NCBI GenBank assembly: GCA_026387315.1
Contig: JAPLLY010000007.1
Coordinates: 1-64,000 of the forward strand
Origin: Candidatus Omnitrophota bacterium
GTDB taxonomy: Bacteria > Omnitrophota > Gorgyraeia > Gygaellales > Profunditerraquicolaceae
Length of the DNA stretch: 64,000 bases
Direction: 5' to 3'
The notes beneath the pieces were generated by a model. The model worked only from the letters and a program-made list of their open reading frames with translations. It was not told where the DNA came from and ran no database searches. Positions 28,059-60,577 of this stretch are shown piece by piece. Position 1 is the stretch's first letter; each line of letters starts with the position of its first letter. Both the position numbers and the translations under genes were made by a program.

Positions 28059-28113
28059 ATCTAGGGGACGGTTCTATTTTTTCTTTTAGAAAAAATAGAA
28101 CCGTCCCCTAGAT
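28059..28113. repeat. REP-like inverted repeat ATCTAGGGGACGGTTCTATTTTTTC...GAAAAAATAGAACCGTCCCCTAGAT
   Basis: Arms read directly. Confidence 0.9.
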
Positions 28114-29856: not shown

Positions 29857-30588
29857 ATGCCTACAAATAAAAAACTTGCTTTAATTATCGGCGGCAGTAG
29901 GGGAATTGGCAAAGCCATCGCTCTGCGCTTGGCTAAATCCGGGTTTAATATCTGGCTGACTTACCATAACAATCACGCAGCAGCCCAGGAGACAAAAAAA
30001 GAAATAGAACTATTAGGCAGCGCCTGCACGCTATTCTGTTTTGATATTGCTAACTATGAAGCCACTAAAGCTGTTCTGGGTAAAATCACAGATACAATTG
30101 TACCTGATTGCTTAGTATTTAATGCCGGTATCGCCCGAGACAATCTTATGGTCTGGATGGCCAAAGAAGAGTGGGATGCGGTTATCTCCACTAATCTAGA
30201 TGGATTTTATAATATCATGCATGTTTTGCTTTTTCCTATGCTAAGGGAAAAACGCGGCCGGATTGTGGTTATCTCTTCAACCTCCGGGCAAATCGGCCAG
30301 GCTGGCCAGGTAAATTACTCGGCTTCTAAAGCCGGCTTAATTGGCGCCGCTCGTGCCTTAGCCCGGGAAGTAGGCAAAAAAAATATCTATGTAAATGTAG
30401 TCAGCCCGGGAGTAATTGAAACGGAAATGACTGATAAACTGCCTAAAGATAAAATTTTGCCCTTAATTCCCTTAGGGCGTTTTGGCAAGGTAGATGATGT
30501 AGCCAGCGTGGTAAATTTTTTGTGCACCGAAGAAAATATGTATATTCATGGACAGGTAATCGGCGTTAACGGCGGCTTGGCAATTTAG
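29857..30588 (+). CDS. fabG: 3-oxoacyl-ACP reductase (FabG-like SDR)
   Basis: IIGGSRGIGKAIALRLAKSG; VFNAGIARDN; YSASKAGLIGAARALAREV; YIHGQVIGVNGGLAI. Confidence 0.92.
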   Translation: MPTNKKLALIIGGSRGIGKAIALRLAKSGFNIWLTYHNNHAAAQETKKEIELLGSACTLFCFDIANYEATKAVLGKITDTIVPDCLVFNAGIARDNLMVWMAKEEWDAVISTNLDGFYNIMHVLLFPMLREKRGRIVVISSTSGQIGQAGQVNYSASKAGLIGAARALAREVGKKNIYVNVVSPGVIETEMTDKLPKDKILPLIPLGRFGKVDDVASVVNFLCTEENMYIHGQVIGVNGGLAI

Positions 30589-32088
30589 ATGAAAAGATAC
30601 GATCATATAGTGGTCGGAAGCGGGATCAGCGGTTTAACCTTAACTCTGCTTATGGCGATGAATGGCAAAAAAGCGCTGCTATTAGAGAAAGGCCCGCATA
30701 TCGGAGGCAGCCTTATCCGCTTTTATAAAAAAAATATTCCTTTTGACACAGGTTTTCATTTTACCGGAGGGTTCTCCTCCGGCGGAATACTTACTGATAT
30801 GCTGGCCGTCTTAGGCATCGGCGAACAGATTAAACCTATATTTCTTTCTGGCTCGGGCAGCGGGCTTTTTGTTTTTGAAAAAGATAACCTGGTTTATGAT
30901 ATGCCTTCCGGCACAGATAATTTTCGTTTGGGCCTGCATAAATATTTCCCCCAAGAAACCAGCGCGATTGAGGCTTATTTTTTGAAGGTTAAAAAGGTAT
31001 ACCAGTCTACGGTATCCCTGGACCTGCGCAAAATTGGGCTTTCCGCTGAAACCGTGGATGAAGATTACCTGAGCCTGCAACAGGTGCTGGATTCTTTAAC
31101 CACTAATGATCATCTTAAAGCGCTTTTATCAGCATTTTGCGTTTGTTACGGGGTTAAGCCTAAAGAAATTTCATTTGCCAATCATGCCCGGGTTGCCGGC
31201 GGCCTTTATGAGTCGGTAGCGCGTATCGAAAACGGCGGTGAGGCATTTATCCGGGCATTTAAAAATCGTTTTACCCAATCCAACATTGATATTTGCTGTA
31301 ACACTACGATCAGCGAATGCGCGGATATCAAAAATGATTGTGTGGGTAAATTTGTCTTAAACGACGGTGATAGCGTAACGGCAACCGACTGCACCTTTAC
31401 CATTCATCCCCGGGAAATTTTAAAAATACTCCCGCGCCAACACCTTAGAAAAGCGTTTCTGGAAAGGGTTTCCGCGTTTGAGACATCGCACGGATTTTTT
31501 TCTGTGTTCGGGGTAGTGGAAAACGCGGATCCTTTAACCTTCGGGCCAAGCATTGCCTCGCTATTACCCAGTACAGATTTAAATGGCTTACTTGACCCCC
31601 GACAGGAAGGGGATGGAGCATTGGCGATTATCCGCAGCGTGGAAACCCACGCTAATAAAAAAAATTGCGTGGTTAATGCCTTTGAACCGGAATTTTACTC
31701 CAATCTCAAACAGTGGGCAGATTCATCTGTAGGTAAAAGGCCGGCTGATTATGGTGAATACAAGGCTCGTAAAGTTCAAAGGATTACTCAGCGATTCTGC
31801 GCACTCTACCCGCAATACCGTAATAATTTCAAGGTGATAGATGCCGCTTCCGTATTGACCTTCAGGGACTACCTGTTTTCTCCTGAAGGCAACGCCTACG
31901 GAATAAAACAAAAAATGGGGCAATTTAATCTTTTTGGTAAATTGCCGCTGGTGAATATTTATGTTGCCGGCCAAAGCGCGGTTCTGCCGGGTATCGTAGG
32001 AGCAATGTTATCTTCATTTATTATAGCCAGAAGCCTGATTGGTAAAGAAAAGTTTAACCATTTCATTGAAGGAGAACTGTCCAATTGA
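30589..32088 (+). CDS. CrtI/phytoene desaturase-like FAD-dependent oxidoreductase
   Basis: HIVVGSGISGLTLTLLMAMNGKKALLLEKGPHIGGSL; VYVAGQSAVLPGIVGAMLSSF-like C-terminus. Confidence 0.82.
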   Translation: MKRYDHIVVGSGISGLTLTLLMAMNGKKALLLEKGPHIGGSLIRFYKKNIPFDTGFHFTGGFSSGGILTDMLAVLGIGEQIKPIFLSGSGSGLFVFEKDNLVYDMPSGTDNFRLGLHKYFPQETSAIEAYFLKVKKVYQSTVSLDLRKIGLSAETVDEDYLSLQQVLDSLTTNDHLKALLSAFCVCYGVKPKEISFANHARVAGGLYESVARIENGGEAFIRAFKNRFTQSNIDICCNTTISECADIKNDCVGKFVLNDGDSVTATDCTFTIHPREILKILPRQHLRKAFLERVSAFETSHGFFSVFGVVENADPLTFGPSIASLLPSTDLNGLLDPRQEGDGALAIIRSVETHANKKNCVVNAFEPEFYSNLKQWADSSVGKRPADYGEYKARKVQRITQRFCALYPQYRNNFKVIDAASVLTFRDYLFSPEGNAYGIKQKMGQFNLFGKLPLVNIYVAGQSAVLPGIVGAMLSSFIIARSLIGKEKFNHFIEGELSN

Positions 32089-33308
32089 AAAGAGTGGCGA
32101 TTACCGGTTTAGGGGTAATTACTCCTTTGGGCAATAGCGTGGAGGCGTTTATTGCCGGGCTCCAGCGTAAAGAAAACGCCACGGTTTATATACCCGAATG
32201 GGAAAAGTATAAAGGATTACGCTGTTTAGTAGGAGCGCCTGCCCGCCTGGAAAATGAGTTACTAATTCCCCGGCAGAACCGGCGTTCAATGGGCAGGTTA
32301 AGCATCTTTGCTGTCCAGGCAGCCCAACAAGCGCTCAAAGACGCCAATATCCCTAAAGACGCGTTATTTAACAACAGGCTGGGCTGCGTGATCGGTTCAA
32401 CCATGGGTAGCGCGGAGAGTATCGCGGAGGCATTTGAGACGATTCTTCCGGATAACGACTTGTCCAAATTAACTTCGACAAAATTCTTTCAATGTGTTTC
32501 ACATACTGCCGCCTTAAATGTGGGGCAATTCCTGGGCATAACCGGAACAGTGATGGCCACTAATGCCGCCTGCGCTTCCGCCTTGCAGGCAATTGGCGCT
32601 GGATACGAGCAGATTCGCCTGGGGCAACAGGATATTATGCTCTGCGGAGGCGCTGAAGGCCTGCATCCTACGGTAGTAGGCTCATTTGATGTACTTTTTG
32701 CTGCCTCGGTTAACTTTAATCAAACACCTAAAGAAACTCCCCGGCCGTTTGATGCCCAACGCGATGGCCTGGTCTGCGGAGAAGGCGCGGGCATTGTTGT
32801 CTTGGAAGATTATGATTTGGCCAAAAAAAGAAAAGCTAAAATTTATGCTGAGATTATCGGTTACAACAGCTTTGCTAATGGCAGCCATGTCAGCGAATCA
32901 AACCGCGAGGCAATCACCTCCTGCATAAATGAAACCTTAAAAAGAGCAAAAGTTACCCCTGGGGATATTGATTATATTAACGCTCACGCCACGGCGACTA
33001 TCCAGGGAGATAAAGAGGAGGCTAGCGCCATCCGTGGAATCTTTGGCTCAACTGTTCCGGTAAGCAGCCTTAAGGGCAATATCGGCCATACCTTGGGGGC
33101 TTCCGGGGCGATAGAATTGATTGCTTCTTTAATCATGATGGAAAAAGGGCTGATTTACCCCACTTTAAATCTAAAAACTCCGGATAAAGATTGCCAGGGA
33201 ATTAATCATGTTATGCAGCCGTTAGCTAAAAAAATAAACATTCTGCTAAAAAATTGCTTTGCCTTTGGCGGGATCAACGCGAGTTTAGTCTGTAAAAAGC
33301 CTGCCTGA
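32085..33308 (+). CDS. Beta-ketoacyl-ACP synthase (FabF-like)
   Basis: MKRVAITGLGVITPLGNSVEAF; active-site ATNAACASALQAIGAGYEQIR; NAHATATIQGDKEE; GNIGHTLGASGAIELI. Confidence 0.93.
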   Translation: MKRVAITGLGVITPLGNSVEAFIAGLQRKENATVYIPEWEKYKGLRCLVGAPARLENELLIPRQNRRSMGRLSIFAVQAAQQALKDANIPKDALFNNRLGCVIGSTMGSAESIAEAFETILPDNDLSKLTSTKFFQCVSHTAALNVGQFLGITGTVMATNAACASALQAIGAGYEQIRLGQQDIMLCGGAEGLHPTVVGSFDVLFAASVNFNQTPKETPRPFDAQRDGLVCGEGAGIVVLEDYDLAKKRKAKIYAEIIGYNSFANGSHVSESNREAITSCINETLKRAKVTPGDIDYINAHATATIQGDKEEASAIRGIFGSTVPVSSLKGNIGHTLGASGAIELIASLIMMEKGLIYPTLNLKTPDKDCQGINHVMQPLAKKINILLKNCFAFGGINASLVCKKPA

Positions 33309-33332: not shown

Positions 33333-33593
33333 ATGATGACTGAACAAGAAGTGATTAAATTAACCAATGAAGTTTTTGTCGATTCATTTGAGATCGAAAA
33401 ATCTAAGCTGCTCCCCGCGGCCGATATTTTCAATGATTTAGGATTAGATAGCCTGGATGTCGTGGATTTGGTGGTGGCTTTGCAAAAGAAATTCGCAGTG
33501 ACCATCCGTGACGATGAGAGGGTGCGGACCATCCGCACGCTCGGGGATCTCCAGCAATTCATCTTAACCATCAAAAAGGAAATCGAAAAATAA
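33333..33593 (+). CDS. Acyl carrier protein
   Basis: DLGLDSLDVVDLVVALQKKF phosphopantetheine motif. Confidence 0.93.
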   Translation: MMTEQEVIKLTNEVFVDSFEIEKSKLLPAADIFNDLGLDSLDVVDLVVALQKKFAVTIRDDERVRTIRTLGDLQQFILTIKKEIEK

Positions 33594-34345
33594 TGCGGAT
33601 TTTAAAAATCGCATTTTTAAATTTTTTCTTTTATACGTTCTTTATTATATTCTCTCTGATTGTGTTCGTAAATTTAGGCAGTTTGATTATTCTATTGGCG
33701 CTCTTTTTGCCAAAACGCAGAATTTTCAAATTTTTGCGCCAGGCGATTAGATGGTATGGGGCGGTAATTATCCGCATTTTACCCTTTCCCTTAATCCGCT
33801 TAGATTACAAAAATTATGGCTTAAATGACCCGCCAGGGCCATATTTATTTATTTGCAATCACCGCGCGGCCAGCGACCCTTTTTTAATGGCGGTATTTCC
33901 TTATGAGATCGTGCAAGTGGTAAACATCTGGCCTTTTCGTCTGCCGGCCTTAGGAATAATTGCCAAAATTGCCGGTTACCTAAGTGTCCGAGAGATGCCC
34001 TATACGGAGTTTGCGGCTAAAACGCGTAAGCTGATTGCCGAAGGGGTTTCTATAGCGGTATTTCCGGAAGGCACGCGTTCACGCGATAAATCCGTCGGGC
34101 AATTCCATAGCGCGATTTTTCGTACGGCGTTAGAAACACACGCGGCGATTGTGCCGGTATGCATCACCGGCAATGAGAATGTGCCACCCATTGAATCAGC
34201 TTTTTTGCGGCCGGGGATAATTAAGATTCATCGGCTGCCGGCTTTAACTTGGAATGAATATGGCGCTTTTAACGCTTTTAAACTTAAAAATTATGTGCGG
34301 GATATGGTTGCTAAAGAAGTGTTGATGATGGATAAAACCAACTAA
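33593..34345 (+). CDS. PlsC-like 1-acylglycerol-3-phosphate acyltransferase
   Basis: FICNHRAASDPFLMAVFP (NHxxxxD-like); VAVFPEGTRSRDKSVGQFHSAIFRTAL. Confidence 0.88.
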   Translation: MRILKIAFLNFFFYTFFIIFSLIVFVNLGSLIILLALFLPKRRIFKFLRQAIRWYGAVIIRILPFPLIRLDYKNYGLNDPPGPYLFICNHRAASDPFLMAVFPYEIVQVVNIWPFRLPALGIIAKIAGYLSVREMPYTEFAAKTRKLIAEGVSIAVFPEGTRSRDKSVGQFHSAIFRTALETHAAIVPVCITGNENVPPIESAFLRPGIIKIHRLPALTWNEYGAFNAFKLKNYVRDMVAKEVLMMDKTN

Positions 34346-34416: not shown

Positions 34417-35712
34417 ATGAAAAATTTACAGATTTATAAAAATTTGGAATTTTCCTCTGTTAAAAAAATTAAGGCAGTTCAAAATATACTGCTTGGCAAA
34501 CATCTTTTACATTGCCAAAAATACTCTCCTTATTACCGTAGAGTATTTAAAAAAACCGGGTTAGATGCCAGAAGATTAAACCTGGATAATTTATCCACGC
34601 TGGAGTTTACCGATAAAACAGAAATCGCCCAATACAATGATGATTTTCTAGCCGTTGATCCGGCAAAAGTAGCAGACATAGTCTTATCCAGCGGAACCTG
34701 CGGCAGGCCGACAAAAATAGCTTATAGTGAGTGGGATTTAAAACGGCTAGCTTATAATGAAGAGCGGTCTTTTGGCTCTTGCAGTTTTACTAACCAGGAT
34801 ACAGTTCTGTTAACTTGCACGCTGGACCGCTGTTTTATCGCCGGACTAGCTTATTACTCAGGCCTACGCGTATTAGGGGCCGCGGCGATCCGTAATGGCC
34901 TGAATAGCTTAGAAAGCCATTTAGAGTTGATCAAGCGGCTGCGGCCAAGCGCGATTGTCGGCGTACCAAGTTTCTTGAGAAAGTTGGGCCTTTATTTAAA
35001 CCAGAAGGGGTATAGCGCCCAAAAAAGCGGAGTAAAAAAAATAGTTTGCATTGGTGAACCCTTGCGGGACAAAAATTTAAAATTCCTAAAAGTCGGGCAA
35101 GACTTAGAAATTATCTGGAGAGCCAAAGCTTACTCTACTTATTCTACGACTGAAATCGTTTCTACTTTTTGCGAATGCGCTGCTCAGGCAGGAGGGCACC
35201 TGCATCCGGATTTAGCGGTTGTGGAAATTATTAACGAACAGGGGAGAAATTTGCCCAATGGGCAGATTGGCGAAGTAGTGGTAACTCCGCTAAGAATCCA
35301 AGCCATGCCTTTGGTGCGCTTTAGAACCGGAGATATCAGTTTCCTGATTGACGCGCCATGCTCCTGCGGGAGAAAATCGCTAAGGCTGGGGCCGATCTTA
35401 GGCAGGCAAAAACAAATGATGAAAGTGCGCGGGACAACCTTTTACCCGCAGGCAATTTATTCCTGCCTGGAAGAAATCAAAGAAATCAGCGAATACTATA
35501 TCAGCGTAACTAGCGAAGGGCAGCTTTGCGATAGTATTGAAATTTATGCGGCAGTAACGGATCCGGCTTGCACTCAAACGCAGATTCAAGAGAAATTACA
35601 GGCGCGTTTAAGGGTAACTCCTAAGGTATTTATCTGCGATGAAGAATTAGTTAAAGAACAGGTATATACCTCTGGTTCCAGAAAACCCGTGCGTTTTATT
35701 GACAGGAGATAA
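34417..35712 (+). CDS. Adenylate-forming enzyme, phenylacetate-CoA ligase/F390 synthetase-like
   Basis: IVLSSGTCGRPTKIAYSEWDL; NGQIGEVVVTPLRIQAMPLVRFRTGDISFLIDAPCSCGRKSLRLGPILGR. Confidence 0.85.
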   Translation: MKNLQIYKNLEFSSVKKIKAVQNILLGKHLLHCQKYSPYYRRVFKKTGLDARRLNLDNLSTLEFTDKTEIAQYNDDFLAVDPAKVADIVLSSGTCGRPTKIAYSEWDLKRLAYNEERSFGSCSFTNQDTVLLTCTLDRCFIAGLAYYSGLRVLGAAAIRNGLNSLESHLELIKRLRPSAIVGVPSFLRKLGLYLNQKGYSAQKSGVKKIVCIGEPLRDKNLKFLKVGQDLEIIWRAKAYSTYSTTEIVSTFCECAAQAGGHLHPDLAVVEIINEQGRNLPNGQIGEVVVTPLRIQAMPLVRFRTGDISFLIDAPCSCGRKSLRLGPILGRQKQMMKVRGTTFYPQAIYSCLEEIKEISEYYISVTSEGQLCDSIEIYAAVTDPACTQTQIQEKLQARLRVTPKVFICDEELVKEQVYTSGSRKPVRFIDRR

Positions 35713-35715
35713 ACA

Positions 35716-37197
35716 GTGGCGAATTGTCAAGCAATTGTTCCTAATTTTGAATTTACCGAGGCCCAAATAAAAGAGGCGGTAAAAAATAACCGCCTGCTCT
35801 CGATGGAAATAGAGTTTTCTCTGCGCTGTAATTTCCATTGCCAGTATTGTTATATCCCCGATAAATCCAGCTTTGATAACGAATTAAGCTTTGAGGAATT
35901 GAGTGATTGCCTTTTGCAAGCTAAGGCCTTAGGGGTTAAAAAAATAATTGTCTTAGGCGGTGAACCTATGCTTTATCCGCAAGTCCTAAAAATGCTTAAA
36001 TTTATCCGCGCGGAAAACCTAGATGTGGAGATGTTTACTAATGGCTTTGGGATCACCCTAGAGATGGCCAAAGAGCTGTTGGATTTAGGAGTCCTGGTAG
36101 TTTTAAAAATGAACAGCCGCAAAGAAGATGTCCAGGATGCCCTGGCCGGTAAAAAAGGCGCCTATAAGATTATTCAGGACGCGTTTAATAATTTAAGGCG
36201 AGCGGGATTTCCCGCTAAAACCAAGCGCTTGGGAGTAAGTACAATTGTCTGCCAGCAGAATTTTGAAGAAATTATTTCCATGTGGGAATGGCTGCGCCAG
36301 CAGGAAATCCAACCTTATTTTGAAATTATCACTCCTCAAGGAAAAGGCAGGCAGAATGAATGGCTGCATGTGGATTCGCAAAAGTTAAAGGAAACTTTTT
36401 TTAAGATCGCTCAAATTGACCGCAAGAAATATGGAATTCAATGGGATCCTCAACCACCGCTAATCGGAATTAAGTGTTTGCGGCATCAATTTTCCTGCTT
36501 GCTTAACTCCCAAGGCTATATTTTACCTTGCGTGGGAATAAATATTCCGCTGGGCAATATCCGCCAGCGCAGGCTCGCGGATATCATTAAAGAAAGCGAA
36601 GTGATCCAGGATCTAAGAAATTATCAGGCCAATATCAAGGGCCCGTGCAGGCAATGCGATAAGACTGATAGCTGTTATGGCTGCCGCGGAGCAGCATATC
36701 AAATGACCGGAGACTATCTTGCCTCTGACCCTTTATGCTGGAATAATATTGAGCATCAAAGCGAGATTGTGCATCTACCGGCTGCCGTAAACAGGTTCAT
36801 ACCACAACAACCTCCCATGCAAGTTATTGATACTCTCGTGAGCATCGGTGAGCGCACGGCAAATATCAACGTGACCATCTCTAATGATATGTTGTTTGTG
36901 CGCGATGATGGCACCCTGGATGAAACTGCTTACTTAGAGCTGATTGCCCAAAGCATTGCCGCCCAGGCCGGATTTAAACAGGTAGGAGTAACCAGCCAGG
37001 CAGTGGAGGGATTCCTGTTGGGGGCAAGAAATCTGGAAATATACGCTTCGGCGCGTATCGGCGACATACTGGCCATATCCATTGAAAAATACGCGCGATT
37101 TGGAGATTTTGGAATTTTCAAAGGCAGGATTTTCAGGGGAGAAGATTTGCTTGCTCAAGGAGAAGTAAAAGTTTGGGAGGATAAAAAGAAATTATGA
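35716..37197 (+). CDS. Radical SAM/SPASM protein fused to an ApeP-like hotdog 3-hydroxyacyl-ACP dehydratase domain
   Basis: CNFHCQYC radical SAM motif; SPASM cysteines (CRQCDKTDSCYGCRG...C); C-terminal FIPQQPPMQVIDTLVSIGERTANINV...SIAAQAGFKQ...EGFLLGARNLEIYASARIGDILAISIEKYARFGDFGIFKGRIFRGEDLLAQGEVKVWE. Confidence 0.82.
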   Translation: MANCQAIVPNFEFTEAQIKEAVKNNRLLSMEIEFSLRCNFHCQYCYIPDKSSFDNELSFEELSDCLLQAKALGVKKIIVLGGEPMLYPQVLKMLKFIRAENLDVEMFTNGFGITLEMAKELLDLGVLVVLKMNSRKEDVQDALAGKKGAYKIIQDAFNNLRRAGFPAKTKRLGVSTIVCQQNFEEIISMWEWLRQQEIQPYFEIITPQGKGRQNEWLHVDSQKLKETFFKIAQIDRKKYGIQWDPQPPLIGIKCLRHQFSCLLNSQGYILPCVGINIPLGNIRQRRLADIIKESEVIQDLRNYQANIKGPCRQCDKTDSCYGCRGAAYQMTGDYLASDPLCWNNIEHQSEIVHLPAAVNRFIPQQPPMQVIDTLVSIGERTANINVTISNDMLFVRDDGTLDETAYLELIAQSIAAQAGFKQVGVTSQAVEGFLLGARNLEIYASARIGDILAISIEKYARFGDFGIFKGRIFRGEDLLAQGEVKVWEDKKKL

Positions 37198-37844
37198 AAA
37201 AGATAGAAACAGTTTTACTGCTGTTCTTTTTTCTAGGGACAACCTGTCTTTACGCTAGCCAGAGCGCTAAAGATTTAGATACTATTTTAAATGCTTTGCA
37301 GGAAAAAATGTCCACGGTGAAAACTATTCAAACCGATTTTATCCAGGAGAAAAATCTGGCGCTCTTTAAACAAAAACTTACCTTAAAAGGCAAAATTTTT
37401 ATTCAAAAACCGGGGATGCTTTCCTGGCGGGTTTTTACTCCTCTGCGTTATTCTTTAGTGATCAACGGCAGCCAGATCAGCCAATGGGACCAGGATACCA
37501 ATCAGGTGCAGTCTGTGTCGTTGGCCAAAAACCCCAGCTTCCAAACAGTAATCCAGCAGATGCAGAACTGGTTTTCCGGCACCTACAAAACTATGCAAGG
37601 AGATTATCAGATCAGCTTAATCAGCCAACAACCCTTAAAGTTAGAGTTTATACCTAAAGAAAAATCCGTGGCGGCCAACTTTATCCAGCGCGTAACCGTT
37701 CTTTTTCAAGACGACCAGCAATACATTAAAGAAATAAACATCCTGGAAAAAAGCCAAGATAGCACTTTACTGGAATTTATTAATGCCCGGCTTAACCAAG
37801 AGATTTCCCCTAAGGCCTGGGAGGTAAAAACTGATGTCCGCTAA
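37194..37844 (+). CDS. LolA-like outer-membrane lipoprotein carrier
   Basis: LQEKMSTVKTIQTDFIQEKNLALFKQKLTLKGKIFIQKPGMLSWRVFTPLRYSLVINGSQISQWD. Confidence 0.85.
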   Translation: MKKIETVLLLFFFLGTTCLYASQSAKDLDTILNALQEKMSTVKTIQTDFIQEKNLALFKQKLTLKGKIFIQKPGMLSWRVFTPLRYSLVINGSQISQWDQDTNQVQSVSLAKNPSFQTVIQQMQNWFSGTYKTMQGDYQISLISQQPLKLEFIPKEKSVAANFIQRVTVLFQDDQQYIKEINILEKSQDSTLLEFINARLNQEISPKAWEVKTDVR

Positions 37845-40242
37845 TTATTTATCCAAAATAAACGACTTGGTAAAAACACATAAAAAATTAATTATCGGGT
37901 TATTAGGCCTGGTGATTCTGGCCTGCCTGATTGGCCTAAAATTTATTAAATACAATAACAATATCGAATTGATGCTGCCGGCAGATAGCCAGGTGCAGCA
38001 GTCCATGCGTTTTTTACGCGAATCTAATTTCTCGGATAAACTGGTTATTTCCCTAAAACTTAATGGCCAAAAGCATTCTACTGATGATTTAATTTTAGCT
38101 ACGGATAAGCTAATTAACTCCATTGACTCTCCTTTGGTTAAACAGGTAATCGGTAGTGTTTCCAGCGCTAACTTTATGCAGGAAATGATTTTTTTTTTAC
38201 AGTATTCCCCGCAACTTTTAGGCACTGAATCTCTAATTAAACTTAAAAATCTACTCCAACCCCCGGGCATTAAAGAACGCTTGAGCTTTATCTACCGGCA
38301 GAGCTTAACCCCGGGAAGTTCCTTGCTCATGCCTTTTTTACGCGCTGATCCGCTTAATTTAAGCTCAGAAATCTTAGGTAATATTGGAAAACTTTCCCAA
38401 TCTTCGGGTTACGATATCACCATTAATAACGGCCACTTTGTGAGTGAGGATGGCCGAACCACCATGATTATTATTAAAACCTCGGTGCTTTTAACCGATG
38501 GGTTTGGCAGCCGTAAAATAGTTAGTTACTTGCAGGAAAAATTGCGCGGTATCCCTGATTTTATTTCCGCTGATATTATCGCCGGGCACATGCATACGGT
38601 AAAAAACGAAGATCTAATCAAAAAGGACATCTGGTTTACCTCAGTTATCGCTGCCTTGGGATTCCTGCTATTATTTTTATTTATCTTCCGTGATTGGCGC
38701 TCGATAATAATTTTTGCCATGCCTTTAGGGGCAGTATTAATCTCAACAGGCGTTGCTTTTCTTATTTTTAAAAACCTTTCGTATTTTGTGATCGGCCTGA
38801 GCACGGTTATCGCCGGTATTACTATTGACTATGGAATTTATGTTTACCTGGCAGTGCGTAAAGCCGGCAACAGCTTAGAAACACTAAGAAAAATTATAAG
38901 GCCCGTGGTCTTTGGAGCATTAACCACGATCAGTGTTTTTGCCGTATTTTTCTTTTCCAGCGTTAAAGGGTATCATCAGTTGGCGTTCTTTTCCAATTTT
39001 ACAATTCTTTTATGTTTAGGCTTCGCGCTATTTATCCTACCGCATTTTATAAAAGAAGAGGCAGTTAGCCCTAAAATTCATCAGCGTCGAGCCGATGAAA
39101 CTGGCAAAAAATTCGTTATAGGCAGTATCCCCGACTATCTCTGGCTGATCTCCTGGTGCATACTTATAATTATCATGCTGGGATTAGCTGCCCGTTTAAA
39201 ATTTAATAATGATATCACGCAATTTGATGGAGCAGGTAAAGAGATCGCCAAAAGCGAAGAAGAATTTCACCACACCTGGGGGGCCAAAAAGCTGCCGGCA
39301 GTGTTTGTGGTTTCTGCCGAAACACTCCCAGGCGCCTATGAGCTTAATGACGCAGTATATGAGGCGGCAGTAAAAGCCATTGGCCAAGAGAATTTTAATA
39401 GCCTTGCTTCGATTTGGCCGGGGATGGCTAAACGTAAGGAAAATTTAGAAGCCTGGAATACATTCTGGACTCAAGAAAAAATAAAAGAATTCCAAAATAT
39501 GCTGTTTGAGTATGGGCAGCCTTTTAATTTCTCTGACGAGGCTTTTGCGCCATTTATCCAACAGCTGCATACCCAAACAAGCCTGGAGATGGAACCTAAA
39601 GGCTTAGTTTTCTTTGAACAGTTAAAAGAGCAGTTTGTGCTTAAAAAAGATGGCGCATATCAAATACTATCTTTTTTTCCGGATCAGGATGAGTATATTG
39701 CCAAGTTATCCGGAATCAAGAACGCTTACCCGGGAACTTTTTTAGTTTCCCGGAAAAACTTTTCGCGGCAAATTTCCCAGGCACTGAGCGGAGAATTTTT
39801 CTTTTTAGCGTTTTTGGCGATTTTTTCTACCCTCGGCCTAACTTTTCTATTATTAAAAAACTTGCGCTTAACCATTCTGGCCATGATCCCGGTTGCCACT
39901 GCCCTAGCCTTGATTGCCGGAGTAACGCATTTAGCCGGGCTAGCTCTAAATATTCCCAGCGTGATTGCCGCCATGGTAGTGGTGGGGATAGTCAGTGACT
40001 ATGGAATGTTTATGGTGTATTATTGTAAATATAGATATCAGACCGGAACCATTATTGCCGTAACCCTGGCCGCGGTAACTACGCTGATTGGGGCAGGGGT
40101 GCTTTTATTTGCCCAACATCCGGTATTATTTTCTATAGGCATAACCTTGGTAACCGGAGTCTTGTCTGGATATCTTTCCAGCTTGCTGATTATCCCCGCG
40201 CTATATAGATTATGGAAGGTAAAAGTTGATGTATCGGTTTAA
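37834..40242 (+). CDS. MMPL/RND-family exporter
   Basis: 12-TM two-lobe layout; GLSTVIAGITIDYGIYVYLAVR and VVVGIVSDYGMFMVYYCKYR. Confidence 0.9.
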   Translation: MSANYLSKINDLVKTHKKLIIGLLGLVILACLIGLKFIKYNNNIELMLPADSQVQQSMRFLRESNFSDKLVISLKLNGQKHSTDDLILATDKLINSIDSPLVKQVIGSVSSANFMQEMIFFLQYSPQLLGTESLIKLKNLLQPPGIKERLSFIYRQSLTPGSSLLMPFLRADPLNLSSEILGNIGKLSQSSGYDITINNGHFVSEDGRTTMIIIKTSVLLTDGFGSRKIVSYLQEKLRGIPDFISADIIAGHMHTVKNEDLIKKDIWFTSVIAALGFLLLFLFIFRDWRSIIIFAMPLGAVLISTGVAFLIFKNLSYFVIGLSTVIAGITIDYGIYVYLAVRKAGNSLETLRKIIRPVVFGALTTISVFAVFFFSSVKGYHQLAFFSNFTILLCLGFALFILPHFIKEEAVSPKIHQRRADETGKKFVIGSIPDYLWLISWCILIIIMLGLAARLKFNNDITQFDGAGKEIAKSEEEFHHTWGAKKLPAVFVVSAETLPGAYELNDAVYEAAVKAIGQENFNSLASIWPGMAKRKENLEAWNTFWTQEKIKEFQNMLFEYGQPFNFSDEAFAPFIQQLHTQTSLEMEPKGLVFFEQLKEQFVLKKDGAYQILSFFPDQDEYIAKLSGIKNAYPGTFLVSRKNFSRQISQALSGEFFFLAFLAIFSTLGLTFLLLKNLRLTILAMIPVATALALIAGVTHLAGLALNIPSVIAAMVVVGIVSDYGMFMVYYCKYRYQTGTIIAVTLAAVTTLIGAGVLLFAQHPVLFSIGITLVTGVLSGYLSSLLIIPALYRLWKVKVDVSV

Positions 40243-40897
40243 ATTAATATTTTTATTACTTATACTCTTGGCCAGTGCCGGCTGCAGCTGTCTACCTTTT
40301 AAAAATATTGATTATGTCGCTTTAAATGATGTTAATCCGGACAATCTACTCCAGGAGTTCAAAGGATTCCTAGCGCAAAAACTCCAGGTAATTAATAGTA
40401 TTGTTTTTGAATATAAATGGCAGAGTTTTTCGGCTTTAGGCTACACTCAGTTAGATTTAGAAAATAATACTTTCCAGGTCTCTTGCATGAATCCAGTCGG
40501 GATTAAGTTATTTGAATTAACCGGAAACGAAAATACCATCAACTCTAATTTTATTTTAAAAGAATTGCTGCAAAAGGGGGACCTTCCCCGGGCAGTAGGA
40601 GAGGATATCCGCAGAATCTACTTTAATATGCTGCCATCTAGCCAAGCAAAAATTGAAAAAGAAAAATACAGAATTATTTTTAGCCAGCCCATCGGCTCAG
40701 GGCAAATGAAATATATTTTTGGCGGCAGCCACCACTGGCTGATTGAAAAACATTATTCTGAAAAAAATCGTAAACTTTGGAGTGTTTTTTATTACGATTA
40801 CCTGATGGATAAAGGCAGGCTTTATCCGGCGGGCTTAATCTTAAAGCATTATCGTTTTGGCTACAATTTAATCATTCGCTTAAAAGAAGTGCGTTAA
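40229..40897 (+). CDS. Outer-membrane lipoprotein, DUF3261/LolB-like
   Basis: Lipobox LLASAGCS; TQLDLENNTFQVSCMNPVGIKLFELTGN; after LolA and MMPL as in APE clusters. Confidence 0.7.
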   Translation: MYRFKLIFLLLILLASAGCSCLPFKNIDYVALNDVNPDNLLQEFKGFLAQKLQVINSIVFEYKWQSFSALGYTQLDLENNTFQVSCMNPVGIKLFELTGNENTINSNFILKELLQKGDLPRAVGEDIRRIYFNMLPSSQAKIEKEKYRIIFSQPIGSGQMKYIFGGSHHWLIEKHYSEKNRKLWSVFYYDYLMDKGRLYPAGLILKHYRFGYNLIIRLKEVR

Positions 40898-41275
40898 ATG
40901 AGTAAACTGAGACAGGAAATTAAATCCAGCCTACAAGCAATAGAGCAGGTTAGTGACCTTAAGACTTCCGCGCGTTTTGTTTTTGCGAAAAAATTTATTG
41001 GCTTTAAAGGCCATTTCCCGAATAATCCGATTTTACCCGGGGTTTGCAAAATCCAGGCGGCATTGCTGGTGCTAGAGGAACGCAAGCATAAAAATGTAAG
41101 ATTGCTTGAAATTATCCTGGCCAAATTCTTTGCCCCGGTAACCTTTAACCAGGAGATAATCTTTAACTTAGAAGAACATCCGAAAAATAGTTCGGAATTA
41201 ACGGTTACGGTTAAAGTAAATTGCGAGGATAAAAAAATAGCGCAGTTGCAGTTAAGAATAAATATATTAGAATAG
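40898..41275 (+). CDS. FabA/FabZ-like hotdog dehydratase
   Basis: FIGFKGHFPNNPILPGVCKIQAALLVLEE. Confidence 0.87.
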   Translation: MSKLRQEIKSSLQAIEQVSDLKTSARFVFAKKFIGFKGHFPNNPILPGVCKIQAALLVLEERKHKNVRLLEIILAKFFAPVTFNQEIIFNLEEHPKNSSELTVTVKVNCEDKKIAQLQLRINILE

Positions 41276-41313: not shown

Positions 41314-42456
41314 ATGGTAATGCCTAAAATAAAAGCGGTAATCACAAACTACGACTTAATCACTGCCTACGGAAGAGGCATCCAGCCTCTCTGGGAGGGA
41401 ATTTTATCCGGAAAAAGCCGCATAGATAAATTGGAACGTTTTTTAACCCACTCTTTCCTTTGCCACAATGCTGCTATTATCTTGGAATTAAGCCTGCTAA
41501 AACAGGATTCCCTATTGATGCAAATGTTAAAAATGATTTTGACTAAAGATTTAAACATCATACCCAGAGACGCTTTCCTGATTTTGGCGACTACGGTGGG
41601 TGAAATTGATTTGTTAGAAAAAGCTGTGCTCAAAAAAACTAATAATCCTGAAGAAAGTAAATTAACCAATCTTTTAAAAAAAGTAAAAACTCTGGCAAAA
41701 ATTAAAGAAGAAGGCATGCTTATTTCCTGCGCTTGCGCCTCTTCCAGCACAGCGATTGCTGAGGCTGCCGGGATTATTGAAAGCGGTAAAGGAGACTGCG
41801 TTTTAGTGGTTGCGGCGGACGCGGTAAGTGAATTTGTTTTTAGCGGATTTTCCTCATTAATGGCCTTAGATAAAGATAGGGCCAAACCCTTTGACAAAAA
41901 TCGCGGCGGTTTATCTTTGGGCGAAGCTGCAGGGTTTATCCTCTTAATGAGCCAAGCCCGGGCAAAAAAAGAAAAAAGGCAGGCTTTAGCTCAGGTTGCC
42001 GGATGGGGATTAAGCTGCGATGCCCTTCACATGACCGGGCCAGCGCGTAATGGAGAAGGCTTAACCCGGGCAATAGCTTGCGCATTAAAAAAGGCGGATA
42101 CAGCTTTGGGCCAAATCGGCTGTATATCCAGCCACGGCACAGGCACGCTTTACAACGACGCTATGGAGCTAACAGCTTTTAAAAATATATTTAAAAATCA
42201 TACTACTGCGGTTTATTCCATAAAAGGAGGCCTGGGGCACACCTTAGGCTCAGCTGGGCTAATTGAGACGATCCTGGCCTTAAAAGTGCAGCAAGAAAAA
42301 ATTATTCCCGGGACAGTAGGTTTAAAAGATATTGACGCGCCAGCCGCAGGATGGGTGAACTCATTGCCGAAAAAATTAAAACAACCAACGATTATGCTAA
42401 ATAACTGCGGATTCGGCGGAATAAATGCCGCCTTAATACTAAAAAGCCTTAACTAA
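41314..42456 (+). CDS. Beta-ketoacyl-ACP synthase
   Basis: MLISCACASSSTAIAEAAGIIESGKGD active-site Cys; ISSHGTGTLYNDAMELTAF; GGLGHTLGSAGLIETI. Confidence 0.88.
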   Translation: MVMPKIKAVITNYDLITAYGRGIQPLWEGILSGKSRIDKLERFLTHSFLCHNAAIILELSLLKQDSLLMQMLKMILTKDLNIIPRDAFLILATTVGEIDLLEKAVLKKTNNPEESKLTNLLKKVKTLAKIKEEGMLISCACASSSTAIAEAAGIIESGKGDCVLVVAADAVSEFVFSGFSSLMALDKDRAKPFDKNRGGLSLGEAAGFILLMSQARAKKEKRQALAQVAGWGLSCDALHMTGPARNGEGLTRAIACALKKADTALGQIGCISSHGTGTLYNDAMELTAFKNIFKNHTTAVYSIKGGLGHTLGSAGLIETILALKVQQEKIIPGTVGLKDIDAPAAGWVNSLPKKLKQPTIMLNNCGFGGINAALILKSLN

Positions 42457-42487: not shown

Positions 42488-43033
42488 ATGATTAAGGGAA
42501 CGGGTTGGATTACACAAAAAAAATACGGATGCCAAAAACAACGCTGGCAGCAGGAATACTCGGATCTAAAATCTTTGTATAGCCGGCTGCGGCCGGAGAT
42601 ATTCAGCTATCCGGTAGCAAACTTTTTCCGCTTTGATACGGTTTCTAAGTTAACTACCGTAAGTATCGCCTTGGCATTATTTGACGCAAAAATAGGCTAT
42701 TGTCCAGGCAAAAAACAGGATATCAGCATCCTGGGTACAAATTCTAGCGGCGCCCTGGAGGCAAATTTAACCTATTTTAATGATTATATTGCTAATGGGA
42801 GAACTCTGGCGAGGGGAAATCTTTTTATTTACACCTTACCCTCAAGCCCTCTGGCTGAAGCAGCTATACATTTCGGCTTAACCGGTAAACTCCTGTACCT
42901 GGGATTCGCGAAAAATACTGAAAAAGAATCTCTAAAATACGCTTTAAATATGTTTAAAACTGAAACCCACAAAACTATAATTTTAGTGAATGCCGATTCT
43001 AAAACAGCAACTGCTTATATATTGCAAAGATGA
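42488..43033 (+). CDS. Short ketosynthase-like (half-size, N-terminal-domain-like) protein without a catalytic Cys motif
   Basis: ISILGTNSSGALEANLTYFNDYI...FIYTLPSSPLAEAAIHFGLTGKLLYLGF; 181 aa only. Confidence 0.65.
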   Translation: MIKGTGWITQKKYGCQKQRWQQEYSDLKSLYSRLRPEIFSYPVANFFRFDTVSKLTTVSIALALFDAKIGYCPGKKQDISILGTNSSGALEANLTYFNDYIANGRTLARGNLFIYTLPSSPLAEAAIHFGLTGKLLYLGFAKNTEKESLKYALNMFKTETHKTIILVNADSKTATAYILQR

Positions 43034-44289
43034 AAATAAAGCTCATCTATCCAAAATGGCCAAAATTAAAAAATCAACCGGAGTTTAATCTGCCTCCGCA
43101 TGGCCCGGTTTGCTTTGCCGCGACTATTCCGGCAAGTGTTCAGGTTTCTTTTTGCGATGAGAATGTTGAACCGTTGGATTTTAATGAAGAGGCGGATTTT
43201 ATCTGTCTATCGGTAATGTTAACCTGCCAGATGCCCCGCGCCTGGGAGATTGCCGATAAGTACCGAGAAAACGGCAAAAAGGTTCTTTTTGGCGGAATTG
43301 CTGCCATGCTGCATCATGAAGAGACCTGTGCGCATGCCGACAGTATATTTTTAGGAGAGGCTGAAGGCAGGATGGAAGAGGTAATCGCGGATTTTAAAAA
43401 TAATAAATTAAAAAAAGTTTATAATTATTTAAATAACTTCCCAGATACAAATTTAATCGGTACGGCGCGGCGGGATATTTTAAAACGGCCGCTCTATAAT
43501 TTCCGCGGAGTACAAATGGTGGACTTAGTGCATGCTTCGCGCGGCTGCCGCTTTAACTGTTTTCCCTGCTGCACCCCGTATTTAGGAGGATGTAAATTCC
43601 GGCCGCGGCCGATTAATTTAGTAGTTAAAGAATTAGAGAGTATCCAGAATAACCGTTTATTTATCGTGGATAACTCTCTGGCTCAGGATGATCGCTGGGA
43701 AAAGGAATTATTCAAGGCGATTACGCCTTTAAAGAAAAAATGGGTCTCTCATCCGATTAAAGACACTGACGAAATCCTGGACCTGGCGGCTAAGGCCGGA
43801 TGCTGGTATGTATATCAGGCAGTAGTGGATACCTCCGAGCATATCCGCAAAAAAGTCAAACGCCTGCAGGACAGGGGAATCGGCATAGAAGGAACGATAA
43901 TTTTAGGTATGGATGATCACGATGAAGACTATATTAAACGCCTGGTTGACTTTTTGCTGGATATAAAATTAGACCTGGCGGAATTCACCATTCTTACTCC
44001 TTTTGCGCATACCCCCATCAGGGCGCAATTAGAAAAAGAAGGGCGTATTCTGCATAATAACTGGATCAGTTATACCGGAGGCGAAGTTGTGTTTAAACCG
44101 GCAAAAATGAGCCCGGACACATTGCAAAAAATGTATGAATACGCCTGGAATACTTTTTATTCGGGTTTTGGAAAAGAAGTGAAAATGGCCAAGCTTTACC
44201 TTAAGGTCATCGAAAAAGAAAAACTTGACGGCACATATTCCGGCCTCCCGCTAAGAAACAGGTCAAAATGGGGGAAAAAACAGCCATGA
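43030..44289 (+). CDS. B12-binding-domain radical SAM protein
   Basis: N-terminal cobalamin-binding-like domain; CRFNCFPC cluster motif. Confidence 0.88.
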   Translation: MKIKLIYPKWPKLKNQPEFNLPPHGPVCFAATIPASVQVSFCDENVEPLDFNEEADFICLSVMLTCQMPRAWEIADKYRENGKKVLFGGIAAMLHHEETCAHADSIFLGEAEGRMEEVIADFKNNKLKKVYNYLNNFPDTNLIGTARRDILKRPLYNFRGVQMVDLVHASRGCRFNCFPCCTPYLGGCKFRPRPINLVVKELESIQNNRLFIVDNSLAQDDRWEKELFKAITPLKKKWVSHPIKDTDEILDLAAKAGCWYVYQAVVDTSEHIRKKVKRLQDRGIGIEGTIILGMDDHDEDYIKRLVDFLLDIKLDLAEFTILTPFAHTPIRAQLEKEGRILHNNWISYTGGEVVFKPAKMSPDTLQKMYEYAWNTFYSGFGKEVKMAKLYLKVIEKEKLDGTYSGLPLRNRSKWGKKQP

Positions 44290-45659
44290 GGGTTTTTTTG
44301 ATTTCATCAAATGTCGCCAGCACCCCTTATTCAGTTTATCCGCTGGGTTTAAGCATGATCGCCGCCAGCCTTAAAAATGCCGGCCACCTTGTGCAACAGT
44401 TTGATTTTCTGGCCTCCAACCGCTCTCTAGAAGCATTAACCGGCGCAATTGGCGAATTCAAACCTGAGATTATCGGGATATCTATCCGCAATATTGATAA
44501 CGTTAATTTACTTAACGAGCAACGCTATATCGATACTGTAAAAAATATCGTCCTTGAGATCCGCCAAGTGAGCTCGGTAAAAATAATTTTAGGCGGCTCA
44601 GGTTTTTCCATCATGCCGGAAACAATCTTAGAGAAAGTTAGCGCGGATTATGGAATTGTGGGGGAAGGTGAAGCTTTAATCGTCGATTTTATTAACCAGG
44701 CGCGCCAAGGAGCCTACCCAAGACAGAAGGTTATCCGTTCTGCGCCAAAATTATTCTTAAAACAAATTCCTTCGGCCTGCTATGATGCCAACATCATGCA
44801 ATTTTATCTTAAAAGCGGCAATGTCGCCAGCGTTCAGACTAAACGCGGCTGCGTGCATAAATGCGTATACTGTTCTTATCCGATTCTCGAAGGACAGAAT
44901 ATCCGTATTCGCGATACCCGGGCAGTAGTCGATGACATTGGAAATTTGATTACCAACTTCGGCGCAAAATATATTTTCTTTGCCGATTCGGTATTTAACG
45001 ATGAGGAGGGTAATTATCTTAAAGTTCTCGCGGAAATGAAAAAACGCAAAATCAATATTCCCTGGACCGCCTTTTTTAAACCTCAAGGCTTAGATGATTC
45101 TGCGCTGGCGCTGATGCAGGGAACCGGCTTAAAAGCCGCGGAGATCGGCGCAGATGCTTGTTCAGATACGACTTTAAAAAAACTAGGCAAATCATTTTTA
45201 TTCAAAGATATTACTGAATGCAACGCGCTTTTTGCTAAATATAACATTGCCACCGCGCACTATTTTATGTTCGGCTGCCCCGGAGAGACGGAAGAAACGG
45301 TGATGGAGGGCATAAATAATATCAAGAATTTACCGAAAACCGCTTCTTTTATTTTTATGGGGATACGTATTTTGCCGCAAACGCCTTTGGCGCAGTTAGC
45401 GATTAAGGAAGGCCTGATTAAACCCGGGCAGGATTTGTTTGAACCGGTTTATTATATTGCTCCGGGAATAGACAGAAAATGGCTGCAGGAGACCTTGACG
45501 TCAGCTTTTAAAGGAATCCGTAATTGCGTTTTTCCTCCGGATGCCTTAGACAGCAGCCTGGCATTCTTGCACAAATTAGGTTACTCCGGCTCGCTTTGGG
45601 AGATGCTCATCCCGGGCAATGCCAAACGCAACCGCAAAAAACAAAATGTCCAAAAGTAA
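44268..45659 (+). CDS. B12-binding-domain radical SAM protein
   Basis: MRVFLISSNVASTPYSVYPLGLSMIAASLKNAGH; CVHKCVYCSYP. Confidence 0.9.
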   Translation: MGEKTAMRVFLISSNVASTPYSVYPLGLSMIAASLKNAGHLVQQFDFLASNRSLEALTGAIGEFKPEIIGISIRNIDNVNLLNEQRYIDTVKNIVLEIRQVSSVKIILGGSGFSIMPETILEKVSADYGIVGEGEALIVDFINQARQGAYPRQKVIRSAPKLFLKQIPSACYDANIMQFYLKSGNVASVQTKRGCVHKCVYCSYPILEGQNIRIRDTRAVVDDIGNLITNFGAKYIFFADSVFNDEEGNYLKVLAEMKKRKINIPWTAFFKPQGLDDSALALMQGTGLKAAEIGADACSDTTLKKLGKSFLFKDITECNALFAKYNIATAHYFMFGCPGETEETVMEGINNIKNLPKTASFIFMGIRILPQTPLAQLAIKEGLIKPGQDLFEPVYYIAPGIDRKWLQETLTSAFKGIRNCVFPPDALDSSLAFLHKLGYSGSLWEMLIPGNAKRNRKKQNVQK

Positions 45660-51849: not shown

Positions 51850-53130
51850 ATGAAACGATATCTAACCGGTATCGACTGGATAGTTAACGCGATAGATTAT
51901 ACAGCTAAGGCTCAATCCGGAATAGGTAATCACTCCGAAGTCATCCTAGAGTTAAAAAATACCCCTGACCATAAATCATTAGAAGAACTATTAAACAATT
52001 TTATCCAAAAATTCCCGCTGCTAAACGGCTTTCCTAGCCGCGCTCTAAATCTCTGCCCTTACTGGAAGGTGCTTTCAGCTAAAAAGGCGCTGCCTTTACG
52101 GGTGTATACCGTAAAACTTAACGCTGATTCCCAATACTTATCGCCAATGGCCGCGCGGGTCAACGCGGCGTTTCAAGATAAAAGAGAACACCTGGTTTTT
52201 ACTCTGGTAGAAACCTCCGGGCGAACTTTTTTAGGCATGGCCTTTGACCACCGCATCCTGGATGCTAAAGGCGCGGAGGCTTTCCTGCATCTTTTCCAGC
52301 AATACTATCAGAATAAAAAACCTCCGCGGATTTCTTATGCCTGCCCGCCGCATCTGAACAATTGGATAGAGAAATTTTTTGCCGGCAGGCAAATCAACCG
52401 GTTTTTATTAAACCTGACCAAAGAACATCCCCGGACATTACCTTTTGATCCGTTGAATGAACCCTGTAAATTCAAGGTTATCCATTTAAATCCCGAACAA
52501 TCAGAGCGCCTTACCGGTATCGCCTATTCCCGCGCCGGTTATCTTATGTTCATGCCTTATGCCTTAGCCAGAAGCATACAGATTATGCACCGGATTTTTC
52601 AAGAAAAAAATATTGGCGGCTCAACTTATCTTATACCTGTACCCCTGGACATGCGTACCCAAGAAGAAGCGTTGAAGGAAACACTTTTTAACCACTTTTC
52701 GTTTTTTATTTTTAAAATTAGCGCCGATAAAATAAACGATCTTGCCGGGCTTTTAGCCGAGATAAAAAACCAGATGTATGAACAGGTAAAAAACAAGGTA
52801 CCTGAAGCCATAGTCAATGCCAGTTTCCTTTTGCGGATTGCCTCCTTGCCGCTGGTAAATTTTTTCCTAAAATTAATGTCCAAAAAACATTTCGCGTCAT
52901 TTTCTTTTTCATACTTAAGTAATACTTATCAACAGAAAAGATTCATGCGGGGAGAAGTGCAGAATATTTTCCATCTGCCCAGGATGCCCAAGCCTCCCGG
53001 AGTCGGCATATTTTTTAACCAGTTTGACAATAAATTAAACATCACTCTTTCATACTTTAATGATCTACTAAATGATAAACAGGTAACCCAAATAACCAAA
53101 AACCTTGAGGCGCTCGGTAATGAAGGCTAA
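51850..53130 (+). CDS. Condensation-domain-superfamily acyltransferase
   Basis: Near-HHxxxDG motif AFDHRILDAKGAEAFLHLF; LIPVPLDMRTQEE. Confidence 0.7.
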   Translation: MKRYLTGIDWIVNAIDYTAKAQSGIGNHSEVILELKNTPDHKSLEELLNNFIQKFPLLNGFPSRALNLCPYWKVLSAKKALPLRVYTVKLNADSQYLSPMAARVNAAFQDKREHLVFTLVETSGRTFLGMAFDHRILDAKGAEAFLHLFQQYYQNKKPPRISYACPPHLNNWIEKFFAGRQINRFLLNLTKEHPRTLPFDPLNEPCKFKVIHLNPEQSERLTGIAYSRAGYLMFMPYALARSIQIMHRIFQEKNIGGSTYLIPVPLDMRTQEEALKETLFNHFSFFIFKISADKINDLAGLLAEIKNQMYEQVKNKVPEAIVNASFLLRIASLPLVNFFLKLMSKKHFASFSFSYLSNTYQQKRFMRGEVQNIFHLPRMPKPPGVGIFFNQFDNKLNITLSYFNDLLNDKQVTQITKNLEALGNEG

Positions 53131-59482: not shown

Positions 59483-60577
59483 ATGCGCATTATAACCATC
59501 TCGAATCAAAAGGGAGGCTGCGGCAAAACAACCACATCCATTAATTTAGCCGCGGCACTGGCAAGCAATTCCCGCAAGGTTCTACTTATTGACCTTGACC
59601 CGCAGGCGCATGCCACCAGCGGCCTGGACATAAAAGCGGATTTAAGCATTTATAATGTCCTTTCTAAAATTACCAATAAAAAAAGCAAACTCGAAGAAAT
59701 TATCCAGAATTTAGGAGAGAATTTTGATATCGCGCCTTCCAGCATAGTTTTAAGCACGCTGGAACAGGAGTTAAGCGGTGAAATCGGAAGAGAATCCCGC
59801 CTCTGCGATATCCTGAAAAATTTTAAAAACAACTACGACTATATTTTAATTGACTGCCCGCCAAACTTAGGAATCCTTACCATTAACGCCATCCGGGCGG
59901 CTAATGAAATAATTATCCCCGTGGAAGCCAGCAGATTTTCTTTAGAAGGCGTAAGCCAGCTCACCAGTATTATTAATTTGATAGCGGAAAGATTAAATCA
60001 CCGCGTGGATTTCCGGGTTTTGGTTGCCAACTTTGATTCCCGCCTCGCGCATTCATTTACTATGCTTGAAAAGATCAAAAACGATTATAGAAATAAAATG
60101 TTTTCTAATATCATCCATGTAAATGTTAAATTAAAAGAGGCGCAGAACGCGGGATTAAACATCCTGGCTTATGATAAATACTGCCGTGGAGCAAAAGATT
60201 ATTTCTCACTTTCCCGGGAAATTATCACTCAGGAGAATAACCCAGAACCCAGCCAGGCAGTAGAAAAAACTTTCCAGAAACGCATGAATGAAATTCTTAA
60301 AAAAGAGCTGCCCAGGTTAAATGAAGTCGTGCTTAGCATTAATGCCCCGGATGCCAAAGAAGTTTATCTAGCCGGAGAATTCAACAACTGGAAACTCGAT
60401 GAAAACAGCCGCATGGAACAAACTAACGGCTGCTGGACTAAGCGCTTAAACTTAAACAGCGGCAAATACCGTTACCGTTTTGTGATTGATGGAAACTGGT
60501 CTGAAGATCCAGTTAATCCGTTAACGCAATTAAATACTTACGGAACCTTAGATTCTCTACTTGAGGTTAAGATTTAG
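59483..60577 (+). CDS. ParA/Soj-type ATPase with C-terminal CBM48/AMPK-type glycogen-binding domain
   Basis: ISNQKGGCGKTTTSINLAAALA; LIDLDPQAHATSGL; C-terminal VVLSINAPDAKEVYLAGEFNNWKLDENSRMEQTNGCWTKRLNLNSGKYRYRFVIDGNWSEDPVNPLTQLNTYGTLDSLLEV. Confidence 0.9.
   Translation: MRIITISNQKGGCGKTTTSINLAAALASNSRKVLLIDLDPQAHATSGLDIKADLSIYNVLSKITNKKSKLEEIIQNLGENFDIAPSSIVLSTLEQELSGEIGRESRLCDILKNFKNNYDYILIDCPPNLGILTINAIRAANEIIIPVEASRFSLEGVSQLTSIINLIAERLNHRVDFRVLVANFDSRLAHSFTMLEKIKNDYRNKMFSNIIHVNVKLKEAQNAGLNILAYDKYCRGAKDYFSLSREIITQENNPEPSQAVEKTFQKRMNEILKKELPRLNEVVLSINAPDAKEVYLAGEFNNWKLDENSRMEQTNGCWTKRLNLNSGKYRYRFVIDGNWSEDPVNPLTQLNTYGTLDSLLEVKI

Follow-up and report, generated by a model that had tools for sequence, protein, structure and literature searches.

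The active sites of FabZ-type dehydratases are assembled from two subunits, with a histidine from one and an acid from the other. Aryl polyene clusters encode the ApeI:ApeP dehydratase heterocomplex, represented by the structure from Xenorhabdus doucetiae (PDB 6QSR), a hotdog assembly in which, according to our alignments, ApeP carries His and Glu and ApeI carries His and Asp. Biochemical work on Chitinophaga pinensis has shown that FlxA is a tyrosine ammonia-lyase and that FlxY, the characterized member of its ligase family, is a 4-coumarate-CoA ligase; the pair has been proposed to initiate flexirubin polyene synthesis (PMC3992019). Finally, the candidate ladderane cluster of anammox bacteria, Kuste3335-3352 (PMC2649909, PMC4790861) includes a radical SAM/SPASM enzyme whose reaction has been an open question since at least 2009.

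The locus described here shares parts with each of these systems. It lies in a window of 64,000 nucleotides from a Candidatus Omnitrophota bacterium (contig JAPLLY010000007.1) and centers on a gene encoding a hotdog domain with the same fold as 6QSR, the ApeP chain being its best match; as in the 6QSR system, an ApeI-like gene is found in the same cluster. Unlike in 6QSR, however, a radical SAM/SPASM enzyme is joined to the P half, from which the histidine is gone, and the ApeI-like protein has lost its acid. As in flexirubin synthesis, a FlxY-family ligase is present in a polyene cluster with LolA/MMPL export, but the radical SAM/SPASM enzyme stands where FlxA would.

A conserved fusion of a radical SAM/SPASM enzyme and an ApeP-type domain

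The fusion gene occupies positions 35716–37197 of the forward strand and encodes 493 amino acids. Its 493 codons run without an internal stop from a GTG preceded by AGGAG, and its stop codon shares bases with the start codon (ATG, at 37194) of the LolA gene that follows. The radical SAM domain covers residues 1 to about 200, the SPASM region 254–341, and the ApeP-type hotdog about 357–489. The radical SAM core (residues 32–189; 35809–36282) matches Pfam PF04055 with an E-value of 2.3e-23 (83.6 bits, cut-off 29.5), and its CxxxCxxC motif is at residues 38–45 (35827–35850). The SPASM region, C254-x12-G267-x4-C272, C311-x2-C314-x5-C320-x2-C323 and C341 (36475–36738), matches PF13186 over residues 254–315 (E 1.7e-7, 31.8 bits, cut-off 21.5). 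Cys38, Cys42 and Cys45, together with SPASM-region cysteines 254, 261, 272, 311, 314, 320, 323 and 341, are invariant in 16 fusions.

The C-terminal part with the ApeP-type hotdog comprises residues 351–493 (36766–37194). The window protein scores 15.1–18.3 bits (E 0.018 at 15.1 bits) against the ApeP-like family PF22817, below the gathering cut-off of 27; of 15 members of its family, 11 reach E≤0.01 with this model, the best 1.3e-8. In sequence comparison, the last 134 residues match 6qsr_B (E 1.2e-7), the chain that represents ApeP in the ApeI:P dehydratase. When this domain is modeled alone, AlphaFold2 gives a pLDDT of 90, and 6qsr_B is the top Foldseek match (E 2.5e-10, TM 0.85/0.80). With the full-length model, 6qsr_B is matched alongside SkfB, MoaA and PqqE; across the SPASM region this model is of low quality (pLDDT about 25–60), and it was kept out of the active-site arguments. 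The original prediction, an uninterrupted frame with radical SAM and SPASM-type cysteines ending in an ApeP-like hotdog, is thus borne out. It would have fallen with a C-terminus lacking the hotdog fold or with a stop between the domains; the fold is there, and the fusion is unbroken here and in 20 further genomes.

When each GTDB species was represented by one genome, a scan found a complete fusion at 16 loci, mostly from Candidatus Omnitrophota. The other labels are Desulfobacterales, Brocadiaceae, PVC group, Pseudomonadota and Bacteroidales, and some of these may be binning errors. Among 384 Omnitrophota genomes, 12 carry the fusion, four of which are new relative to the species-level scan, so that intact fusions total 21 genomes with the window's own counted in. 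A search of viral contigs gave a single, remote match. Where dS is measurable, dN/dS is about 0.04–0.09 for both halves, which indicates that purifying selection acts on each of them. An assembly error or a chance fusion is ruled out by the 20 further intact copies and the low dN/dS. No published description was found in a literature collection of limited reach, in line with the earlier remark that no described example is known. This is a real and conserved domain fusion, apparently undescribed, in a known kind of pathway.

The radical SAM/SPASM protein also occurs alone at about 50 further loci, where it ends just past a CW.N motif at about residue 344. In the radical SAM tree, the solo forms of anammox bacteria, of three Omnitrophota loci (L142–L144) and of loci L168 and L169 fall outside, while the fusions group inside with solo forms of Desulfobulbales that are nested among them. 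The solo form is probably ancestral, and the nested Desulfobulbales forms suggest that gene splitting may have occurred as well. Monophyly of the fusions is neither shown nor rejected (p-AU 0.08).

The gene cluster and the two dehydratase halves

The gene order around the fusion is kept, from the ketoreductase to the GT2 glycosyltransferase, in nearly all fusion loci. In the window, the cluster genes given here with coordinates are on the forward strand. Upstream are an ApeQ-like ketoreductase (KR; 29857–30588), a CrtD/phytoene-desaturase-like oxidoreductase (30589–32088), an ApeR-like ketosynthase (KS; 32085–33308), an acyl carrier protein (ACP; 33333–33593), a lysophospholipid acyltransferase (LPLAT; 33593–34345) and, directly before the fusion, the FlxY-family acyl-CoA ligase (34417–35712). 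By far the best model for this ligase is FlxY_rubin (NF053551), at 446 bits and below the cut-off of 520. The fusion is followed by an ApeL-like LolA carrier (37194–37844), an ApeM-like MMPL/RND exporter (37834–40242), an ApeN-like DUF3261 LolB-like protein (40226–40897, its match just below cut-off), the ApeI-like hotdog (40898–41275) and an ApeO-like ketosynthase (41314–42456). Next come a half-size ketosynthase-like protein (42488–43033), which has no Pfam match and by position and size is probably an ApeC-like chain-length factor (CLF), a B12-binding radical SAM protein (43030–44289), a ladderane-type B12 radical SAM protein (44268–45659; TIGR04072, 626 bits, above the equivalog cut-off of 360) and GT2. 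A half-size CLF has been described (PMC8358021).

In its middle part, the cluster matches the set of aryl polyene genes listed for E. coli (PMC8253772): KS/CLF, KR, two dehydratase halves, ACP and a LolA/MMPL/DUF3261 exporter are all present. What differs is the source of an aromatic starter. The window's genome, which is 93% complete, has neither an aromatic lyase of family PF00221 nor a chorismate lyase (PF04345), and no chorismate lyase is found in 28 genomes; the ammonia-lyase and chorismate lyase routes to such a starter are therefore both missing from the window's genome.

The catalytic residues of the two hotdogs are complementary. In profile alignments, the acid of the fused domain is Glu408 (36937–36939) and the position of the catalytic histidine is Thr400 (36913–36915). 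The glutamate is present in 21 of 21 fusions and the histidine in none of them, so that no fused hotdog holds both catalytic residues of a FabZ-type site in one chain. The ApeI-like partner encoded in the same cluster keeps its histidine (15/15 in fusion clusters; His39 in the window) and has lost its acid in 14 of 15 cases: the site is Gln in eight (Gln53 here), Leu in four, Met in one and Thr in one, and only the protein from locus L037 retains Glu. The window's ApeI-like protein gives weak PF22818 and FabA matches below cut-off, and a profile of nine relatives matches 6qsr_A with an E-value of 6.5e-8.

This pattern makes it quite probable that the dehydratase is an ApeI:P heterodimer with one shared active site, in which the C-terminal hotdog, as the ApeP half of the chain-elongation dehydratase, would donate Glu408, and the ApeI-like protein His39. 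The composite site would then dehydrate 3-hydroxyacyl-ACP. Since the catalytic His is missing in every fusion, the fused hotdog is probably inactive by itself and would need ApeI. The earlier claim of a dehydratase domain therefore stands for its fold and its ApeP likeness, and probably fails for a domain working on its own, which is unlikely with His absent from 21 of 21 fusions. The assay of the isolated domain that accompanied it is predicted to fail, because the dehydratase likely works only with the product of 40898–41275. The histidine loss is not a consequence of the fusion, since it predates the fusion within the P family: 50 of 50 stand-alone P domains have the glutamate and only three have the histidine, the other 47 lacking it. 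Indirect support for a complex of P and ApeI comes from a Desulfobacterota genome (G698), in which ApeP and ApeI hotdogs form a single 313-residue polypeptide (L183:2408-3346); its P half has Glu without His, and its I half has His and Asp. In this dehydratase, then, each of two proteins appears to supply one catalytic residue, and one of the two also carries a radical enzyme.

Several other features of the window were noted. Upstream of the cluster and of an Alginate_exp-type porin gene, at 28062–28113, lies an inverted repeat (TAGGGGACGGTTCTATTTTTTCT / AGAAAAAATAGAACCGTCCCCTA) that could be a terminator or an element of the REP type. A 426-residue protein (51850–53130) without a confident Pfam match has a DHRILDAKG stretch resembling HxxxD condensation/acyltransferase enzymes. 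Further on, a GH57 gene (57179–58753) shortly precedes a gene for a MinD/ParA-type ATPase with a C-terminal AMPK1/CBM48 glycogen-binding domain (59483–60577).

The radical half, FlxY and the start of the chain

The radical half has the radical SAM core and SPASM region common to NirJ, AhbC/AhbD, PqqE and the mycofactocin maturase. It belongs to none of the families compared: its best NCBIfam score is 127 bits for NirJ2, and the scores for AhbD, PqqE and the mycofactocin maturase are 120, 100 and 82, far below the respective cut-offs of 500, 500, 381 and 265.

Its genomic partner is more telling. Where the flank of an intact fusion was covered, FlxY is the gene immediately before it, and a radical SAM/SPASM gene also directly follows FlxY in three split loci (L040, L168 and L169), in anammox loci L126 and L127, and in Omnitrophota loci L142–L144. 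In the split loci, the radical gene is about 6–10 kb from ApeP yet still adjoins FlxY. Locus L171 has the order LPLAT-FlxY-X-ApeP-LolA-MMPL-DUF3261-ApeI-KS, in which X is an aromatic amino acid lyase homologous to FlxA (PF00221, E 3.7e-167, GASGD motif) and is followed by a stand-alone P; there is no radical SAM/SPASM gene in this cluster. The same order, again with a stand-alone P, is found without FlxY and without a radical SAM/SPASM gene in L170, L172–L176 and many more, and about 30 related clusters lack FlxY, the lyase and the radical gene alike. Two decayed copies (L129:6781-8520, reverse strand, and L130:9384-10514) have lost the CxxxCxxC segment by an in-frame deletion while conserving the SPASM cysteines and the hotdog, and their genomes contain no FlxY orthologue, the best matches being generic ligases at 25–29% identity. 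A Fisher test of FlxY against starter enzyme gives p 1e-13 on a table de-duplicated by hand that ignores relatedness, so we place weight on the counts. The slot swap is seen once and the co-loss twice, in loci related by descent.

The linkage has its exceptions. FlxY is not always the partner of the radical enzyme, since stand-alone orthologues with about 55–61% identity occur in Desulfobulbales clusters that have no FlxY orthologue. At the P-I fusion locus L183, near a contig end, FlxY is seen but no starter enzyme of either kind, and three genomes with FlxY and the radical enzyme (G012, G405 and G408) have an aromatic lyase gene or fragment elsewhere.

The FlxY linkage, the ammonia-lyase in the same slot and the co-loss with FlxY favor starter supply: judged from gene context, the odds are about even that the radical half provides the acid activated by FlxY. 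The N-terminal enzyme would most likely make or modify a carboxylic-acid starter in place of the FlxA of flexirubin synthesis, and the adjacent FlxY would activate it. The reaction could be that of a radical ammonia-lyase or of a decarboxylase, or the product could be a wholly different acid. The fusion probably arose since, in an operon of collinear genes, the starter gene directly preceded that for ApeP; its effect would be to hold chain initiation close to the elongation complex. Taken as a whole, the best explanation, which we would accept or doubt with equal readiness, is a bifunctional protein that combines half of a composite dehydratase with starter supply in an aryl-polyene-like type II PKS cluster.

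The original prediction coupled the radical enzyme to the dehydration step. As architecture this coupling is supported, while the part that took the isolated hotdog for a dehydratase probably does not hold. It went on to suggest radical editing of a nascent polyene. In such a scheme, the ApeP half would present the growing or finished chain, an enoyl or polyene bound to ACP, to the radical SAM domain for cyclization, isomerization, methylation or desaturation during elongation. The physical link to a dehydratase half agrees with this, as do the three further B12 radical SAM enzymes of the cluster, and PMC6050322 describes a HemN-like radical SAM enzyme that cyclopropanates olefinic bonds with a methyltransferase. 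Editing would not, however, readily account for a radical gene that stays beside FlxY when it is far from ApeP, nor for an ammonia-lyase in its slot, and where P stands alone and the radical SAM/SPASM gene is absent, FlxY is absent too. Set against the FlxY linkage, the slot swap and the co-loss, editing is not favored, and we consider it rather doubtful. (The third B12 radical SAM protein, at 54287–55762, is nearest to the hopanoid C-3 methylase HpnR, with 235 bits for a cut-off of 650.)

The two domains could also be independent, joined by the loss of a stop between operon neighbors, with nothing but their expression ratio fixed. Unfused clusters do have LPLAT(-FlxY-X)-ApeP in line, fused and solo forms are mixed in the tree (the p-AU of 0.08 and possible splitting included), and the fates of the domains are separate in L129 and L130, where the hotdog remains although the radical motif is gone. 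Against such an accident, fusions are retained in 21 genomes from several families and phyla, and their linker is short and of conserved length, which makes a fusion without functional coupling unlikely. As for the hotdog itself, a glutamate without histidine is a thioesterase pattern too, and a weak TIGR00051 (YbgC/FadM) match (E 0.023) points the same way, to a 4HBT/YbgC-like enzyme releasing or proof-reading acyl chains. But ApeP ranks first by both fold and sequence, and the gene stands where ApeP would be expected. With an ApeI partner that offers the complementary residues, and with P and I naturally joined in one protein at L183, a thioesterase is highly improbable. Starter supply remains our preferred role for the radical half, since both its exchange for an ammonia-lyase and the naturally decayed copies suggest a part in initiating the chain.

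Relation to the anammox ladderane cluster

Two genomes (G498 and G578) are taken as anammox because they contain hydrazine synthase alpha (PF18582). The locus in G498 reads KS-KS-KS-CLF half-FlxY-radical SAM/SPASM-TIGR04072-like-KR-ACP-FabZ-MMPL-CrtD-GT2, and that in G578 is nearly identical in order. It matches the published order from Kuste3349 to Kuste3335 (PMC4790861, PMC2649909). Judged by position, Kuste3343 is the counterpart of the radical half and the “unknown” Kuste3345 that of the half-size CLF, both assignments being made by synteny. The TIGR04072-like B12 radical SAM protein, the FlxY/PaaK-type ligase, the half-size CLF, the KR, the CrtD-like protein, the MMPL exporter and the glycosyltransferase are common to the Kuste3335-3352 cluster and to the fusion clusters, and they stand in the published order in L126 and L127. 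The anammox radical SAM/SPASM orthologue is 44% identical; unlike in the fusion clusters, it is a stand-alone protein, and FabZ takes the place of ApeI/ApeP. Ladderane-type clusters have previously been reported in Omnitrophota of the Cariaco Basin (PMC9902471), a report in which no mention of the fusion was found. The likeness of the Omnitrophota clusters to the anammox cluster is one of genes alone, and implies no ladderane production.

This synteny allows a concrete role to be proposed for the radical SAM/SPASM enzyme of ladderane clusters. FlxY and the radical enzyme, the latter in place of the ammonia-lyase, could form an initiation module for an unusual starter acid, common to the Omnitrophota polyene clusters, in which it is fused to the dehydratase, and, as Kuste3343 and its neighboring ligase, to the anammox ladderane cluster; we put this forward very tentatively. 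If true, ladderane assembly would start from a radical-made starter, as opposed to a late cyclization of a polyene. As a separate observation, the fusion-bearing PVC-group genome G404, to which locus L036 belongs, has two HZS_alpha-domain (PF18582) matches in long frames.
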